64,000 nt of DNA from an uncultured Haliea sp. (lineage in GTDB: Bacteria; Pseudomonadota; Gammaproteobacteria; Pseudomonadales; Halieaceae), in the NCBI GenBank assembly GCA_947258585.1, contig CAMYIZ010000038.1, positions 1 through 64,000 of the forward strand, given 5' to 3'. Shown here one piece after another: positions 512-51,041 of this stretch (the stretch's first letter is position 1; each line of letters starts with the position of its first letter). The position numbers were made by a program, and so were the translations under genes. A model generated the notes under the pieces. That model had not been told where the DNA came from. It ran no database searches and saw nothing but the letters and a program-made list of their open reading frames with translations.

Positions 512-1582
512 ATGGATGTGGATACAAGAAAAATAAGCCCCAAAAGGACGGCCGCTGGCGGCAAGGCCAGTAAAGGAAATCCGCGTACCCCCCAGGTAAA
601 GACGCGGGCCGAAGACATCCCGGAAGACGAGTTGGAGTTGGAGCAGGCGGCTGCCGATGGGGCGCCGGACGAACTTCTCCTCGAAGAGAGTGAGGAAGCT
701 GCCGAGCAGCTGGCCTTTGACCGCGCCCGGTCTGCCCGCTCGGTTGAGAAGTCCCTGGACGCCACCCAGCTCTACCTGAACGAAATCGGTTTCTCGCCAC
801 TGCTGACTGCGGACGAGGAAAAGTACTACTCCCGTCTGGCGCTCAAGGGCGACGAGGCGGCCCGGCGCCGGATGATCGAGAGCAATCTGCGCCTGGTGGT
901 AAAGATCTCCCGCCGCTATATCAACCGCGGGCTGACCCTGCTGGATCTTATCGAGGAGGGCAACCTGGGCTTGATCCGCGCCGTGGAGAAGTTCGACCCG
1001 GAGCGCGGCTTCCGTTTTTCCACTTATGCCACCTGGTGGATCCGGCAGACAGTCGAGCGTGCGATCATGAACCAGACCCGCACCATTCGCCTGCCCATCC
1101 ACGTGGTCAAGGAGCTCAATGTTTACCTGCGTGCGGCGCGTGAGCTCACCCAGAAACTTGATCATGAGCCCAGCGCGGAAGAAATCGCCGACATGCTGGA
1201 CAAGCCTGCGGAGGACGTGAAGCGCCTGCTGGGGCTGAACGAGCGGGTGACTTCAATCGATGTTCCCGTGGGGCCGGAGTCGGACAAGGCGGTACTGGAT
1301 ACCATTGCCGATATTGGCGGCAGCGACCCTTCGCAGTTGCTGCAGGAGAACGATATCCGCGACAGCATCAGCCACTGGCTCGATGAACTGTCGGAAAAGC
1401 AGCGCGAGGTGGTGTCCCGGCGTTTCGGGCTCAGGGGACACGAGAGCAGTACGCTGGAAGAGGTGGGGCGGGAGATAGGATTGACCCGGGAGCGGGTGCG
1501 CCAGATCCAGGTGGAGGCCCTGCGACGCCTCCGTCAGATCATGGAGACAGAGGGCCTTACCGGGGACTCCCTGTTCAGCTGA
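512..1582 (+). CDS. rpoS: RNA polymerase sigma factor RpoS
   Basis: Sigma-70 regions 1.2-4.2 ([78 protein letters not shown]); synteny nlpD-rpoS-fdxA-mutS. Confidence 0.96.
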
Positions 1583-44409: not shown

Positions 44410-47400
44410 ATGCCGGAAGCGGTGGTTCGCGCCATCCCGCCGATTACCTATCCCCCCGAGTTGCCTGTGGTGCAGCGCCGGGAGGACATCGCGCGGGCCA
44501 TCAGCGAGCACCAGGTGGTGATCATTGCCGGCGAAACCGGTTCCGGCAAGACCACCCAGATCCCCAAGATCTGCCTGGAGCTGGGGCGTGGCCGCGAGGC
44601 CCGGATCGGCCACACCCAGCCTCGCCGACTGGCGGCGAGGACCGTGGCGCAGCGTATTTCCGATGAACTGCAGGTGCCGCTGGGCGAGGCGGTGGGCTAC
44701 CAGGTGCGTTTCACCGACCAGGTTTCCGAGGCCTCGGCGGTCAAGCTGATGACCGATGGCATACTGCTGGCGGAGATCCGCAACGACCGGCTCCTGCGGC
44801 AGTACGACACGCTGATTATCGACGAGGCCCACGAGCGCAGCCTCAACATTGACTTCCTGCTCGGCTACCTGCGGCAGCTGTTGCCGAAACGGCCAGACCT
44901 GAAGTTGATCATCACGTCCGCTACCATCGACGTCAACAGCTTCTCGCAACACTTTGGCAACGCCCCCATCATTGAGGTCTCCGGTCGCAGCTACCCGGTG
45001 GAAACGGTGTACCTTGATCCCGCCGAAGATCGGGACCTGGGGCTGCAGGAGCAGATCGTGGGCCTGGTCGACGACATTGAAGCGGGCCGTTTCGGGGAGC
45101 GCGGGGATGTGCTGGTGTTCCTGCCGGGAGAGCGCGATATTCGAGAGCTGGCGCGGCAACTGCGAGGTCGGGAACGGCTGGAGGTGCTGCCGCTCTACGC
45201 CCGCCTCACCCAGGCCGAACAGAGCCGCGTTTTCGACCTCTCGCGGCGGCGGGGGATGCGGGTGGTACTGGCGACGAATGTGGCGGAGACCTCCGTTACC
45301 GTGCCCGGTATCCGCTATGTGATCGACCCGGGAGAAGCCCGTATCAGCCGCTACAGCTTCCGCACCAAGGTGCAGCGGCTGCCCATTGAGCCCATCTCCC
45401 GGGCCAGCGCGAACCAGCGCCAGGGCCGCTGTGGCCGTATCGCTCCCGGCGTCTGTATCCGTCTCTACACGGAAACCGATTTCCTCTCGCGGCCGGAGTT
45501 CACCGACCCGGAGATTCTCCGCACCAGCCTCGCGGCGGTGATTCTGCAGATGCTGAACCTGGGGCTGGGGGAACTGCAGCGCTTCCCCTTTATCAATCCC
45601 CCGGACCCGCGCATGGTGCGCGACGGCTACAAGCTGCTGCAGGAGTTGGGGGCGGTCACCGGTCGCGGCAAGCTGACCGGCATCGGCAAGCGCATGGCCA
45701 GGTTGCCGGTGGATCCGCGCCTGGCGCGGATGGTTCTGGCCGCTCAGCAGCTGTCCTGTCTGGATGAGGTGCTGGTGATCGCGGCGGCACTGGCCATCCA
45801 GGATCCCCGGGAACGGCCGGCGGACAAGCAGGCGCAGGCCGACCAGATGCACGCGCGCTTTCGTCACCCGCGCTCGGACTTCATGGCCTGGCTGGCCCTC
45901 TGGCGCTATTACGAGGAGCAGCGCCAGGCCCTGAGCCAGAGCCAGTTGCGCAAGCTCTGCCAGCGCGAATTCCTCTCGTTCCTGCGGCTGCGTGAGTGGC
46001 GCGACATGCATGCCCAGCTGCGCATTGGCTGCCGCCAGCTCGGGCTGCATCCGGGGGCGGGATTGCCCGCGGTGGAAGAGGAGAGCTATGACGCGGTGCA
46101 CCGGGCCCTGCTGGCGGGTTTACTGTCGAATATTGCCCAGCACCAGGAGGACCGGGACTACCTCGGCAGCCGCAACCGCAAGCTGCAGATTTTTCCCGGC
46201 TCCGCCCTGGGGCGGCAGCGGCCGAAGTGGCTGGTGGCAGCGGAGATCGTGGAAACCTCAAGGGTGTTCGCCCGTACGGTCGGCACCATCGATCCCGCCT
46301 GGGTCCTGGACACCAACCCGGAGCTCCTCAAATTCCACTATTACGAACCGCGTTGGGAGGCACGCCAGGGGCGGGCCATGGCCTGGGAGAGAGTGACGCT
46401 GTACGGCCTGACGGTGGCCGACAAGCGCCCGGTACACTACGGCCCGATCAATCCGGCGGAATCGCGGGAGCTGCTGATTCGCGAAGGCCTGATCGCCGGG
46501 CGCTTTCCCCGCCATCCCGGATTCCTGAAGCACAATCTCAAGCTGCTGCGCACGCTTGAAGATCTCGAAGCCCGGGCCCGGCGCCGGGACCTGCTGGCCG
46601 ACGAGCAGGTGCTCTTTGCGTTCTATGCCGAGCGCCTGCCGGAGGACGTCACCACCGCCGAGCGCCTGCGCGCCTGGCTGGCGGCCACGCCGGCTGCGGA
46701 TGCCAGCCTGCGGGTTCCCCGCGACTTGCTGCTGGCGCGGGACCCGGGATCCGGCCTCGGCCAGCAGTTCCCCGATCGCTTGAGCTGGGGTGACATGGAG
46801 TTCCGCCTCAGCTACCAGTTCGAGCCGGGGCAGGCGACGGACGGTGTTTCGGTGACGGTGCCGGTCGGACTGCTGAACCGGGTGCCGCGCTTCCGGTTCG
46901 ACTGGCTGGTACCGGGCTTGCTGCGTGACAAGTGTATTGCCCTGGTCAAAAGCCTGCCCAAGGACAAGCGCAAGCAGCTGGTGCCGGTGCCGGACACGGT
47001 GGATCGCGCGCTGGCGCTGCTGGCTCCCGGGGACGAGGACCTCTGTGTGGCACTGGCCCGGGAACTCTCACGGCTGGGCGGTATTGCCGTACAGCCCGGC
47101 GACCTGCAGGCGGACAGGCTGGACGCCTTCTACCGTATGAATATCCGGGTCGTCGACGCGGATGGCAAGCTGCTGAACCAGGGACGGGACCTGGCGGCAC
47201 TGGTGGCCGAGTTTCGCAGCGACACGCGCCAGACCATCAGCGCGGCGGCCACCAGCAGTCCCGCCCGGGAGGGCCTGACCCACTGGGATATCGATGCGCT
47301 GCCCGAGACCTGGCGGTTCCGCCAGGCCGGCACCGAGATCGTGGCCTGGCCGGCCCTGGTGGACCGGGGTGAGTCGGTGGCGGTGGAGTTGTGCGATTAC

Positions 47401-48165
47401 CCGGGTCTGGCCCTGTTGCAACACCGGCTCGGGGTGCTGCGGCTGCTGCGGCTGCAGCAGAAACAGCAGGTCAAGTTCCTGCGCAAACAGCTGCTGCTTG
47501 GCAACGAGACCAGTCTGCTGCTGGCGGCGGCAGGGCAGGAGCGGGTGCCGCTGGTGGATGACCTGATCGATGCGGCCTGGGTTCAGGTCGGTGGCCTCAA
47601 TGAGGCCCTGCCGCGTGACGCAGCTGGATTCCAGGCCGTGCTGGCCCACAGTGGCGAGGTCGTGGCGCGGGCTACGGCGCTGGAAACCAACCTGCTCAAT
47701 GCACTGAAACCGCTGGCGGAGCTGCAGCCTCTTTGGGCCCGGTTTACCGACCCGTCCTGGGCCCCGGCACTGGCGGATATCCGGGAACAGCTTGCGGACC
47801 TGTGGCAGCCCGGGTTTCAGCGCGATACCCCGGCGGACTGGCTGGCCCAGTACCCGCGCTACATGAAAGCGCTGAAACAGCGTCTGGAGCGCCTTGGCGG
47901 GCAGCTGCCCCGCGACACCACCCAGCGCGAGATGCTGCAGCGGCTTGCCGAGCCCCTGCGCGATGCCCGCGCCCGGTGGCCGGGTCTACTGGCCCAGTGC
48001 GCGCCGGCGCAGCAATATCGCTGGATGCTGGAGGAATTTCGGGTGTCCCTGTTCGCCCAGCAACTGGGCACCCGCATACCGGTCTCCGACAAGCGTCTGC
48101 AGGAGCAGTGGGGGCTGGTGAGCGAGTGGCTCGATACCCATCCGGACGGTGGTCTCGCACCCTGA
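44410..48165 (+). CDS. hrpA: ATP-dependent RNA helicase HrpA (DEAH-box)
   Basis: GETGSGKTTQIPKICLELGRG, DEAHERSLNIDFLLGYL, SATID; 1251 aa with HrpA C-terminal domain. Confidence 0.97.
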   Translation: MPEAVVRAIPPITYPPELPVVQRREDIARAISEHQVVIIAGETGSGKTTQIPKICLELGRGREARIGHTQPRRLAARTVAQRISDELQVPLGEAVGYQVRFTDQVSEASAVKLMTDGILLAEIRNDRLLRQYDTLIIDEAHERSLNIDFLLGYLRQLLPKRPDLKLIITSATIDVNSFSQHFGNAPIIEVSGRSYPVETVYLDPAEDRDLGLQEQIVGLVDDIEAGRFGERGDVLVFLPGERDIRELARQLRGRERLEVLPLYARLTQAEQSRVFDLSRRRGMRVVLATNVAETSVTVPGIRYVIDPGEARISRYSFRTKVQRLPIEPISRASANQRQGRCGRIAPGVCIRLYTETDFLSRPEFTDPEILRTSLAAVILQMLNLGLGELQRFPFINPPDPRMVRDGYKLLQELGAVTGRGKLTGIGKRMARLPVDPRLARMVLAAQQLSCLDEVLVIAAALAIQDPRERPADKQAQADQMHARFRHPRSDFMAWLALWRYYEEQRQALSQSQLRKLCQREFLSFLRLREWRDMHAQLRIGCRQLGLHPGAGLPAVEEESYDAVHRALLAGLLSNIAQHQEDRDYLGSRNRKLQIFPGSALGRQRPKWLVAAEIVETSRVFARTVGTIDPAWVLDTNPELLKFHYYEPRWEARQGRAMAWERVTLYGLTVADKRPVHYGPINPAESRELLIREGLIAGRFPRHPGFLKHNLKLLRTLEDLEARARRRDLLADEQVLFAFYAERLPEDVTTAERLRAWLAATPAADASLRVPRDLLLARDPGSGLGQQFPDRLSWGDMEFRLSYQFEPGQATDGVSVTVPVGLLNRVPRFRFDWLVPGLLRDKCIALVKSLPKDKRKQLVPVPDTVDRALALLAPGDEDLCVALARELSRLGGIAVQPGDLQADRLDAFYRMNIRVVDADGKLLNQGRDLAALVAEFRSDTRQTISAAATSSPAREGLTHWDIDALPETWRFRQAGTEIVAWPALVDRGESVAVELCDYPGLALLQHRLGVLRLLRLQQKQQVKFLRKQLLLGNETSLLLAAAGQERVPLVDDLIDAAWVQVGGLNEALPRDAAGFQAVLAHSGEVVARATALETNLLNALKPLAELQPLWARFTDPSWAPALADIREQLADLWQPGFQRDTPADWLAQYPRYMKALKQRLERLGGQLPRDTTQREMLQRLAEPLRDARARWPGLLAQCAPAQQYRWMLEEFRVSLFAQQLGTRIPVSDKRLQEQWGLVSEWLDTHPDGGLAP

Positions 48166-48302
48166 AATATGAAATAGTACCAAAGCCCCTCGAAGCGCGG
48201 GGAAACTTCCTCGCCAATACTGGGTCACAGCACTGACTGTTGGCGTTTGGCGCCGGCATTGAATGTGTTCGAGAACTTCCACTAATCAAAAGGACAATCA
48301 TC

Positions 48303-48644
48303 ATGGCTCAGTCAAAGAAGCCCTTCGCATTCGCCCTCGGTGCAGCCTTCCTGGCCAGCTCCGTGGTACCCATGGCATCAGCGGAGGCCAACCCCTTTGC
48401 GGCGGAACAGCTTAACACCGGCTACAACCTTGCCAACTACGCCTCTCACGGTGACGGCGACCACGAGGGAAAATGTGGTGAGGGCAAGTGTGGTGAGAAG
48501 GAAGGTGAAGGCAAGTGCGGTGAAGGCAAGTGCGGCGAAAAGGATGGTGAAGGCAAGTGTGGCGAAGGCAAGTGTGGTGAAAAGGACGGCGAACGCAAGG
48601 ACGGCGAGGGCAAGTGTGGCGAAGGGAAGTGCGGCGGTGCCTGA
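48303..48644 (+). CDS. hvfA: HvfA-like RiPP precursor with eight EGKCG motifs
   Basis: 113 aa; signal peptide (MAQSKKPFAFALGAAFLASSVVPMASA|EANPF), spacer FAAEQLNTGYNLANYA, then (EGKCGEGKCG) four times separated by EKEG/EKDG/EKDGERKDG; followed by DUF692 and DUF2063 genes. Confidence 0.93.
   Translation: MAQSKKPFAFALGAAFLASSVVPMASAEANPFAAEQLNTGYNLANYASHGDGDHEGKCGEGKCGEKEGEGKCGEGKCGEKDGEGKCGEGKCGEKDGERKDGEGKCGEGKCGGA
48465..48635 (+). repeat. In-frame tandem repeat encoding EGKCG motifs (core of the hvfA-like gene)
   Basis: gaRggMaaRtgYggY units, period 15 nt within pairs and 42 nt between the first three pairs. Confidence 0.92.
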
Positions 48645-49501
48645 TGCCGGATAGTCACAACGGGCCCGCGGGAGCGGGCCTGGGATTGCGACGGGCCCTG
48701 ATGGGTCCGCTGCTTTCGCTGCCCCGGGGCGAGCTGGATTTTCTCGAGCTGGCGCCGGAGAACTGGATTCGGGTAGGCGGCCGCTACGGGCGCCAGTTGC
48801 GCCAGCTCGCGGAGCGCTTCCCTCTGGTGTTCCACGGCTTGTCACTGGACATTGGTGGCCCGGACCCGCTGGACACGGACCTGCTGCACGCCGTGCGCAG
48901 GTTGATGGACGAACTGGGGGTGGACGTGTACAGCGAGCACCTCTCCTGGTGTGCCGCCGAGGGGCACCTCTACGATCTCCTGCCAATACCCTTTACCGCG
49001 GAGGCGGTGCGCCACGTCACCCAGCGCGTACAGCAGGTGCAGGACATTATAGGCGCGCCGCTGGCCCTGGAGAACGCCTCCTATTACGCCCAGGCGCAGG
49101 CCGACATGAGCGAGGCGGAATTCATCAGCGCCGTGGTCAGTGGCTCCGGCTGTGACCTCCTGCTCGATGTGAACAACATCTACGTCAACAGTATCAACCA
49201 CGGCTATGACGTGTCCGCTTTCCTGCGCGCCCTGCCGCTGGACCGGGTACGCTATATCCACGTGGCCGGTCATTACGATGAAGCACCCGATTTGAAGGTG
49301 GACACCCACGGCGCCGATGTCATCGACCCGGTGTGGGACCTGCTGGCCGAGGCCTACCACCTGCTGGGGCCGGTGCCAACGCTGCTTGAGCGCGACTTCA
49401 ATCTGCCGCCCCTGCCGGACCTGTTGCGGGAGGTGGCGCGGATTCGTGAGTTGCAAACGGCTCGCAGCACTGACAACAGGCTGGCGCTCGCCCATGGCTG
49501 A
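48644..49501 (+). CDS. hvfB: MNIO (DUF692) family multinuclear non-heme iron oxidative enzyme, HvfB-like
   Basis: GLGLRRALMGPLL...DFLELAPENWI, HGLSLDIGGPDPLD, YSEHLSW, LALENASYY, DLLLDVNNIYVNSINHGYD, IHVAGHYDE, LLERDFNLPP; ATG overlaps precursor stop (TGATG). Confidence 0.94.
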   Translation: MPDSHNGPAGAGLGLRRALMGPLLSLPRGELDFLELAPENWIRVGGRYGRQLRQLAERFPLVFHGLSLDIGGPDPLDTDLLHAVRRLMDELGVDVYSEHLSWCAAEGHLYDLLPIPFTAEAVRHVTQRVQQVQDIIGAPLALENASYYAQAQADMSEAEFISAVVSGSGCDLLLDVNNIYVNSINHGYDVSAFLRALPLDRVRYIHVAGHYDEAPDLKVDTHGADVIDPVWDLLAEAYHLLGPVPTLLERDFNLPPLPDLLREVARIRELQTARSTDNRLALAHG

Positions 49502-50231
49502 GCTGCGTGACAGTCAGCTGGCATTCGCCGGGCACCTGCGCAATCCTGACGCTGTGCCCCCGCCGGGTGGCATTGAGCCGCGTCGCCTGAAGATTTATCA
49601 GGACCTCATCTACAACAACATCGAGGGCTTTATCAGCGGTGGTTTCCCCGTGCTGCGGAGTCTGTATTCCGCACCGGCGTGGCACGCCCTGGTACGCCAG
49701 TTCATTGACGACCATCGCTGCCACACACCGTATTTCCTTGAAATCAGCCAGGAGTTCCTGCGCTTTCTGTTCGAACGTCACCAGCCCGGGCCGGAGGCCC
49801 CGCCGTTTATTGCCGAGCTGGCTCACTATGAGTGGGCGGAGCTCGCCCTCTCGGTCGCGGAGGAGGATTTGCCGCCCCCGGCACCTGGTCGCGACCCGCT
49901 GGCGGCGGTGCCGCGGCTGTCACCGCTGGCCTGGGTGCTGGCCTACCAGTTCCCCGTGCACCGCATCGGGGCCGACTATCGGCCCGCGGAACCCGGTGAT
50001 CCAGTCTATCTGACGGTCTATCGTGACAGGGAGGACGAGGTCCAATTCATGGTTCTCAATGCCGCCAGCGCGCGCCTGCTGGAGCTTGCCCGCGACAACG
50101 AATCGGGCAGCGGCGCCCAGCTTTTACAGCAGCTGGCAGTGGAGCTGGGTATGGATCCAGAGCGGGTCCTTGGCTTCGGTGGCACCCAGCTGGCGGATTT
50201 CGCCAGCCGTGGCGTCGTTATCCTGCACTGA
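49494..50231 (+). CDS. hvfC: DUF2063 family putative DNA-binding-fold protein, HvfC-like RiPP partner of the MNIO enzyme
   Basis: RLKIYQDLIYNNIEGFISGGFPVLRSLYSAPAWHALVRQFIDDHRCHTPYFLEISQEFLRFL; overlaps hvfB stop by 8 nt. Confidence 0.93.
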   Translation: MAELRDSQLAFAGHLRNPDAVPPPGGIEPRRLKIYQDLIYNNIEGFISGGFPVLRSLYSAPAWHALVRQFIDDHRCHTPYFLEISQEFLRFLFERHQPGPEAPPFIAELAHYEWAELALSVAEEDLPPPAPGRDPLAAVPRLSPLAWVLAYQFPVHRIGADYRPAEPGDPVYLTVYRDREDEVQFMVLNAASARLLELARDNESGSGAQLLQQLAVELGMDPERVLGFGGTQLADFASRGVVILH

Positions 50232-50321
50232 TACAAGCCAACTTTTGCCCCTTAGTCCGTGTTGCTCCTCCGTACACACAAGCGTAATATTCCGCCACTT
50301 TTTTCGAACATCGGCAATGCC

Positions 50322-51041
50322 ATGAAACTGCTGCGCCCGACCCTGGGGCTCCTGTGTCTGCTTCTGCTTGCTCCGGCGATGGCCCAGGAGCCCGTCAATC
50401 CCGACCCCTGGGAGGGTTTCAACCGCCCCATCTTCGAGTTCAATGAGCAGCTGGACAAGTATGTTCTGAAACCCGTGGCGAAAGGCTACCAGGCGGTGAT
50501 GCCTGATCCCGCGGAAAGGGGCGTCAGCAATTTTTTCAGCAACCTGCGTGACGCCAACTCCACCCTCAACGCCGTGCTGCAGGGGCGTCCCGGTGGCGCG
50601 GTCCGCGCTGGCGGCCGTTTCCTGCTCAATTCGACGTTTGGCATGCTGGGGCTGTTTGATGTGGCCACCCGTATGGGTGTCGAGCCCTACCGCACAGACT
50701 TCGGTCACACCCTGGCCATCTGGGGCGCCCCTTCCGGGCCGTATCTAATGGTTCCCGTGCTGGGGCCGCGCACCGTCCGCAGCGGCACCGGTTCCGTCTT
50801 CGACGCTTTTGCCTCGGTGGAGATGGCCATCGACGACGCGGGCATCCGCAACTCCCTCCGGGGGCTGGATATCGTCGACGCCCGTGCCGGGCTGCTCAAG
50901 GCGGAGGACCTGGTGTCGGGGGACCGCTATATCTTCCTGCGCGATGCCTACCTGCAGCAGCGCCGGGCGCTGGTCAATGATGGCGTGGTGGAGGACAGCT
51001 TCTCGGACTTTGGCGACGATGACTGGGGCGAGGAATTTTGA
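50322..51041 (+). CDS. mlaA: MlaA (VacJ) family lipoprotein, intermembrane phospholipid transport
   Basis: NPDPWEGFNRPIFEFNEQLDKYVLKPVAKGYQAVMPDPAERGVSNFFSNLRDANSTLNAVLQG; start at MKLLRPTLGLL. Confidence 0.94.
   Translation: MKLLRPTLGLLCLLLLAPAMAQEPVNPDPWEGFNRPIFEFNEQLDKYVLKPVAKGYQAVMPDPAERGVSNFFSNLRDANSTLNAVLQGRPGGAVRAGGRFLLNSTFGMLGLFDVATRMGVEPYRTDFGHTLAIWGAPSGPYLMVPVLGPRTVRSGTGSVFDAFASVEMAIDDAGIRNSLRGLDIVDARAGLLKAEDLVSGDRYIFLRDAYLQQRRALVNDGVVEDSFSDFGDDDWGEEF

Follow-up and report, generated by a model that had tools for sequence, protein, structure and literature searches.

The window, a 64,000-nt stretch of contig CAMYIZ010000038.1 from an uncultured Haliea sp., very probably carries a minimal captophorin operon of the HvfABC/MmrABC/FonABC type. 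The product of this RiPP operon would be a thiooxazole-containing Cu(I) peptide, and transcription of the operon would start at an ECF-type promoter that a sigma factor encoded elsewhere in the genome recognizes, RpoE being the leading candidate. This reading is based on family models, on the solved structures 3BWW and 3DEE, on the conserved ABC gene order, on FonB-type residues in the modifying enzyme, and on the precedents of the fon and mmr operons. The identity, order and coupling of the genes, the specificity residues, and the conservation of both the promoter and the chromosomal slot were observed here.

Organization and identity of the genes

The three genes are read from the forward strand. 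Re-checking of the open reading frames bore out the arrangement given in the preliminary description, i.e., an hvfA-type precursor gene (48303..48644; 113 aa, eight EGKCG motifs), whose stop codon overlaps the start codon of the hvfB-type MNIO (DUF692) gene (TGATG; 48644..49501, 285 aa), and an hvfC-type gene (49494..50231; 245 aa), which overlaps the MNIO gene by 8 nt (49494-49501) and codes for a DUF2063 partner protein with an RRE fold. In profile searches the MNIO ORF matched PF05114 with 344 bits (cut-off 25), and the partner ORF matched PF09836 with 89 bits (cut-off 27.2) and NGO1945_C with 102 bits (cut-off 27), in agreement with the DUF692 and DUF2063 assignments made earlier. The curated NCBIfam models for the HvfB equivalog (418; cut-off 360) and the HvfC equivalog (307; cut-off 142) were also passed, which upholds the proposal of an HvfABC-like RiPP locus with MNIO and DUF2063/RRE enzymes. 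The closest solved structures were PDB 3BWW for the MNIO (E=6e-76) and PDB 3DEE for the partner protein (E=2e-13), both of which belong to genuine RiPP loci (PMC13097082). Rfam gave no match for a structured RNA in the locus region, and PADLOC matched no defence genes. We conclude that the locus is a real, functional-looking representative of an already described class.

The grouping of these genes is not due to chance, since the MNIO and HvfC genes occur together in 79 of 80 related loci, and in nearly all of them a KCG-repeat ORF is found just upstream. Among named relatives, Haliea sp. E1-2-M8 comes first (85% MNIO identity), followed by Halioglobus, Parahaliea, Pseudohalioglobus and Seongchinamella.

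The precursor peptide

The precursor begins with a putative Sec signal peptide, MAQSKKPFAFALGAAFLASSVVPMASA (48303..48383, forward strand), recognized by sequence inspection and kept in relatives. By eye its n-, h- and c-regions are typical, and cleavage would occur after residue 27. Directly behind it lies a conserved leader segment, NPFAAEQLNTGYNL (48390..48431, forward strand); 67 of the 74 precursors compared had the motif [ND]PF-x4/5-LxxG[YF] at this place, which is a plausible recognition site for the RRE of the partner protein. In H. influenzae, HvfA that lacks its signal peptide is poorly modified (PMC13419390). The core region (48465..48635, forward strand) holds the eight EGKCG motifs in tandem cassettes, and TRF detected a 42-nt tandem array at positions 48483-48623 with 83% matches. 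With the HvfA-family repeat model KCGExKCG_twice (NF050137) the precursor scored 53.4 bits, above the cut-off of 19.5, but with the strict HvfA equivalog NF050188 it reached only 40.7 bits against a cut-off of 95, and hence it is filed as HvfA-family only.

In several other Halieaceae precursors (L012, L008, L010, L013, L015 and L020) EGSCG or EGNCG stands in place of most EGKCG motifs; the L012 precursor has six EGSCG and two EGKCG.

Predicted modification and function of the peptide

The MNIO residues R16/R17 and D251/F252 correspond, by local motif, to Arg15/Arg16 and Asp249/Phe250 of FonB, which have been linked to specificity for EGKCG (Lys-Cys-type) substrates (PMC13097082). These four residues are at least 98.8% conserved among 80 loci. 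The same genome has a separate second locus, of the DUF2282 bufferin type with a DoxX gene, and its MNIO carries Arg-His and Asp-Asn at the specificity positions. The thiooxazole chemistry, the export and the copper binding of the captophorin reading are taken from characterized relatives. Fontimonas FonBC install seven 5-thiooxazoles (PMC13097082), Microbulbifer MmrB/MmrC remove four hydrogens from each cysteine in the EGKCG cassettes (PMC12538549), and the structure of oxazolin has been revised to 5-thiooxazole (PMC13097082, PMC13419390). The preliminary description had envisaged oxazolone/thioamide groups; this part does not stand, because the chemistry of the class has since been reassigned to 5-thiooxazole (PMC13097082, PMC13419390). 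The remainder of its proposal, a modified-cysteine peptide for copper handling, fared better: family models, relatives and published work (PMC12538549, PMC13097082, PMC12452194) favour a cysteine-modified, Sec-exported and probably Cu(I)-binding product.

By analogy, the operon probably works as follows. The DUF2063-RRE partner, bound to the MNIO, would recognize the signal-peptide/leader region of the precursor, and the MNIO would oxidize the eight Lys-Cys-Gly cysteines to 5-thiooxazole, with a loss of four hydrogens each (∼32 Da in total). The modified peptide would be exported by Sec, the signal peptide would then be lost, and the mature form would be a periplasmic protein that binds Cu(I) at multiple sites. 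Transcription would most likely start from the ECF-type promoter at 48202-48229, driven by an unlinked sigma factor for which RpoE is the leading candidate.

Comparison with known systems

Two of the closest known systems are published minimal operons. The Microbulbifer mmrABC operon (bulbicupramide) shares the minimal ABC layout, the conserved leader and the lack of a protease or exporter nearby, and its precursors have five to eight EGKCG cysteines, compared with eight here, but it belongs to a different genus (PMC12538549). Neither the Halieaceae promoter motif nor the hrpA/mlaA slot described below is mentioned in that report. The Fontimonas fonABC operon, source of fontiphorin, the captophorin type example, likewise shows the minimal ABC layout, EGKCG repeats, and the Arg-Arg and Asp-Phe pairs, although fontiphorin has seven modified cysteines and the window precursor eight motifs; the account of fon does not deal with its regulation (PMC13097082). 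Haemophilus hvfABCX (oxazolin; PMC13419390) has in common with the window HvfB, HvfC and a precursor with paired EGKCG motifs and a Sec signal, which is putative in the window, but it includes the DoxX-like hvfX, and the window precursor falls under the HvfA equivalog cut-off. The Neisseria operons NGO1944-1948 and NMB2140-2145 also encode DUF692, DUF2063 and putative periplasmic proteins, and are ECF-controlled; in contrast to the Haliea locus, the sigma and anti-sigma genes lie inside the operon, and the promoter consensus is GTMAGBWTT/CGTCTAAH with a 12-13-nt spacer. Finally, in the DUF2282 bufferins (Buf1) an MNIO and a DUF2063 protein modify a secreted cysteine peptide, whereas the precursor family is another one, a DoxX gene is present, and the MNIO has Arg-His and Asp-Asn.

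A conserved chromosomal slot

In the window the operon is flanked by two forward-strand genes that lie outside the system and serve as slot markers: the hrpA helicase gene upstream (44410..48165), and mlaA downstream (50322..51041; PF04333, 243 bits). The other neighbours code for a SpoIIE/response-regulator protein, a STAS protein, TerB and transaldolase. All 30 Halieaceae-like loci with enough sequence on the upstream side had hrpA there, and all 31 with enough on the downstream side had mlaA; HvfC followed the MNIO in 33 of the 34 loci, and the remaining one lies on a truncated contig. In the 46 loci outside this group the slot was mostly different, and DoxX was present in six. The constant hrpA-ABC-mlaA position suggests that the captophorin operon has been vertically inherited within the Halieaceae-like group.

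Neither a DoxX gene nor an ECF sigma gene adjoins the locus in the window flanks, and a linked copy of either was thus discarded as part of the locus. The preliminary description was correct on this absence, but it had taken it as a mark that sets the locus apart from fuller Hvf loci. Neither this absence nor that of an exporter gene distinguishes the locus: the published fon and mmr operons are equally minimal, none of the 34 Halieaceae-like relatives has DoxX nearby, and a locus reduced to ABC is thus nothing out of the ordinary. A sigma gene does lie ∼47 kb away, at window positions 512-1582, but its sequence, judged by inspection, is of the RpoS-like and not of the ECF kind. The Chromatocurvus halotolerans locus (L054) departs from the Halieaceae-like loci: it has DoxX, lies outside the hrpA/mlaA slot and lacks the promoter motif.

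A probable ECF-type promoter precedes the precursor gene

Comparison of the precursor upstream regions of relatives revealed a motif, GAAACTT-N15-GTCNNA. In the window it takes the form of an ECF-sigma-type promoter, GAAACTT-N15-GTCACA, on the forward strand at 48202..48229, 101 nt before the precursor start, an element that the preliminary description had overlooked. This was the sole exact match in the window, and no match was found in 100 shuffles. With the spacer set to 15 nt and no further filter, the motif was exact in 29 of the 34 Halieaceae-like upstream regions and had one mismatch in four more (33/34). Composition-preserving shuffles gave 0/1700 exact and 4/1700 one-mismatch occurrences, a comparison that overstates the significance of the motif since related upstream regions are not independent. 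A looser form was upstream in 42 of 74 loci with an extracted precursor, with about one further copy elsewhere in 1.4 Mb of locus DNA. Across 61 family genomes, 19 of 28 strict matches were immediately followed by an EGKCG precursor. Positions 48100-50400 yielded no sigma-70-like promoter. A literature search for the motif came back blank, and an unlinked, family-wide fixed ECF-type promoter was likewise absent from the open-licence papers searched. The family-conserved ECF-type promoter is apparently the single unreported detail of the locus.

RpoE is the leading candidate regulator

The assignment of a sigma factor is deduced from the motif and from co-occurrence. Five sigma genes of the ECF type were found in the genome, namely RpoE (TIGR02939, 322.7; cut-off 236), C73, C51, C17 and a FecI-like gene. 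Among 41 genomes compared, 14 had the motif before the precursor, and RpoE was present in all 41, including the 14 motif-bearing ones. C73 was found in just 4 of 41, and among the 14 motif-bearing genomes C51 was missing from four, C17 from four and the FecI-like gene from five, some of these absences possibly stemming from incomplete genomes. As each of these four is missing from several motif-bearing genomes, they were rejected as the regulator. The upstream region of rpoE itself carries GGAACTT-N15-NTCNNA (exact in 20 of 27), which has the same architecture as the precursor promoter, with the AACTT core and the spacing in common; the E. coli sigma E promoter is quoted as GGAACTT / TCAAA. 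Judged from these sequences, RpoE is the leading candidate regulator of the captophorin operon.

The two promoter sets differ at two bases. Base 2 was A in 33/33 precursor promoters and G in the rpoE promoters, the latter sites having been selected with G at base 2 and at most one mismatch, and the base before TC was G in 33/33 precursor promoters and never G in rpoE promoters. The precursor promoter may thus be either a tuned RpoE promoter or a site for another sigma factor. The latter, in which a different ECF sigma with a small regulon of its own, possibly this operon alone, reads the promoter instead of RpoE, seems to us a serious contender with somewhat less than even chances: the two bases separate the sets in all examples found, and the family-wide concentration of strict matches before EGKCG precursors would suit a small regulon, but the four remaining ECFs detected in the genome show the absences given above, and the two of them that were checked lack the motif before their own genes.

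Extent of the regulon

The motif gave five matches in the genome itself and three in a reversed control, and a relaxed form gave 15 and 15. A broad regulon was therefore rejected, the own-genome count being barely above the control. Order-wide, the motif count was at or below the control level, with 3 of 29 loci before precursors, which ruled out the motif as an order-wide feature. Because no enrichment was seen elsewhere, the claim is limited to the precursor promoter.

In the genome itself, motif sites also occur before dsbD, a DUF4136 lipoprotein gene, a Bax-inhibitor-1 protein gene and a toxin-antitoxin-like pair. The first three would suit an envelope-stress response. The dsbD site (L088; C26:2742-2769) precedes the gene for a periplasmic thiol-disulfide enzyme, appealing next to a thiol-based copper peptide; it was not seen in other members of the genus. 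One close relative (G063) has sites similar in sequence to those before the Bax-inhibitor-1 gene (L087/L090; C61:73793) and the DUF4136 lipoprotein gene (L084/L089; C29:312). In a genome of another family (G223), eight copies of GAAACTT-N15-GTCATA were found on contigs C43, C56, C58, C65, C77 and C116, several of them nearly identical and apparently in a dispersed repeat.

ECF control of such operons has precedents in Neisseria sigma E and in Caulobacter sigma F, which controls DUF2282 loci via GTAACC-N16-CGAA. We tentatively propose, with the odds somewhat against it, that the Halieaceae captophorin operon is a fixed, trans-controlled member of an envelope-stress sigma regulon that is not induced by copper, and that its peptides would serve against periplasmic thiol/envelope stress, possibly together with DsbD-type enzymes.

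Copper and the role of the peptide

A copper-handling role for the minimal layout is plausible by analogy with characterized relatives, and copper induction of the locus is an assumption. Copper-induced detoxification, in which copper would trigger production of the peptide and the peptide would soak up surplus Cu(I) in the periplasm in a bufferin-like manner, appears rather unlikely. Modified relatives do bind Cu(I), and DUF2282 bufferins improve growth under copper stress. However, the conserved upstream element resembles an ECF promoter, the same-layout Microbulbifer homologue protected E. coli only slightly, and the MmrA-C proteins were undetected in the proteomes of Microbulbifer whether copper was present or not, the authors being reluctant to assign copper protection. 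An extracellular, methanobactin-like chalkophore for copper acquisition is very improbable: methanobactin likewise combines MNIO chemistry with Cu(I) binding, but here the precursor is a long repeat protein with a putative Sec signal, no dedicated exporter, TonB receptor or protease adjoins the locus, and the MNIO scored far under the cut-off of the MbnB model (TIGR04159; 49.9 against 325).

The class, its minimal layout and its chemistry are already published; the promoter and the fixed slot lift the locus above the routine. EGKCG captophorins are widespread in Pseudomonadota, and in this family the conserved promoter points to regulation by an ECF sigma factor, of which RpoE is the probable one, and directs attention to envelope/thiol stress, and away from copper salt, as a possible inducer.
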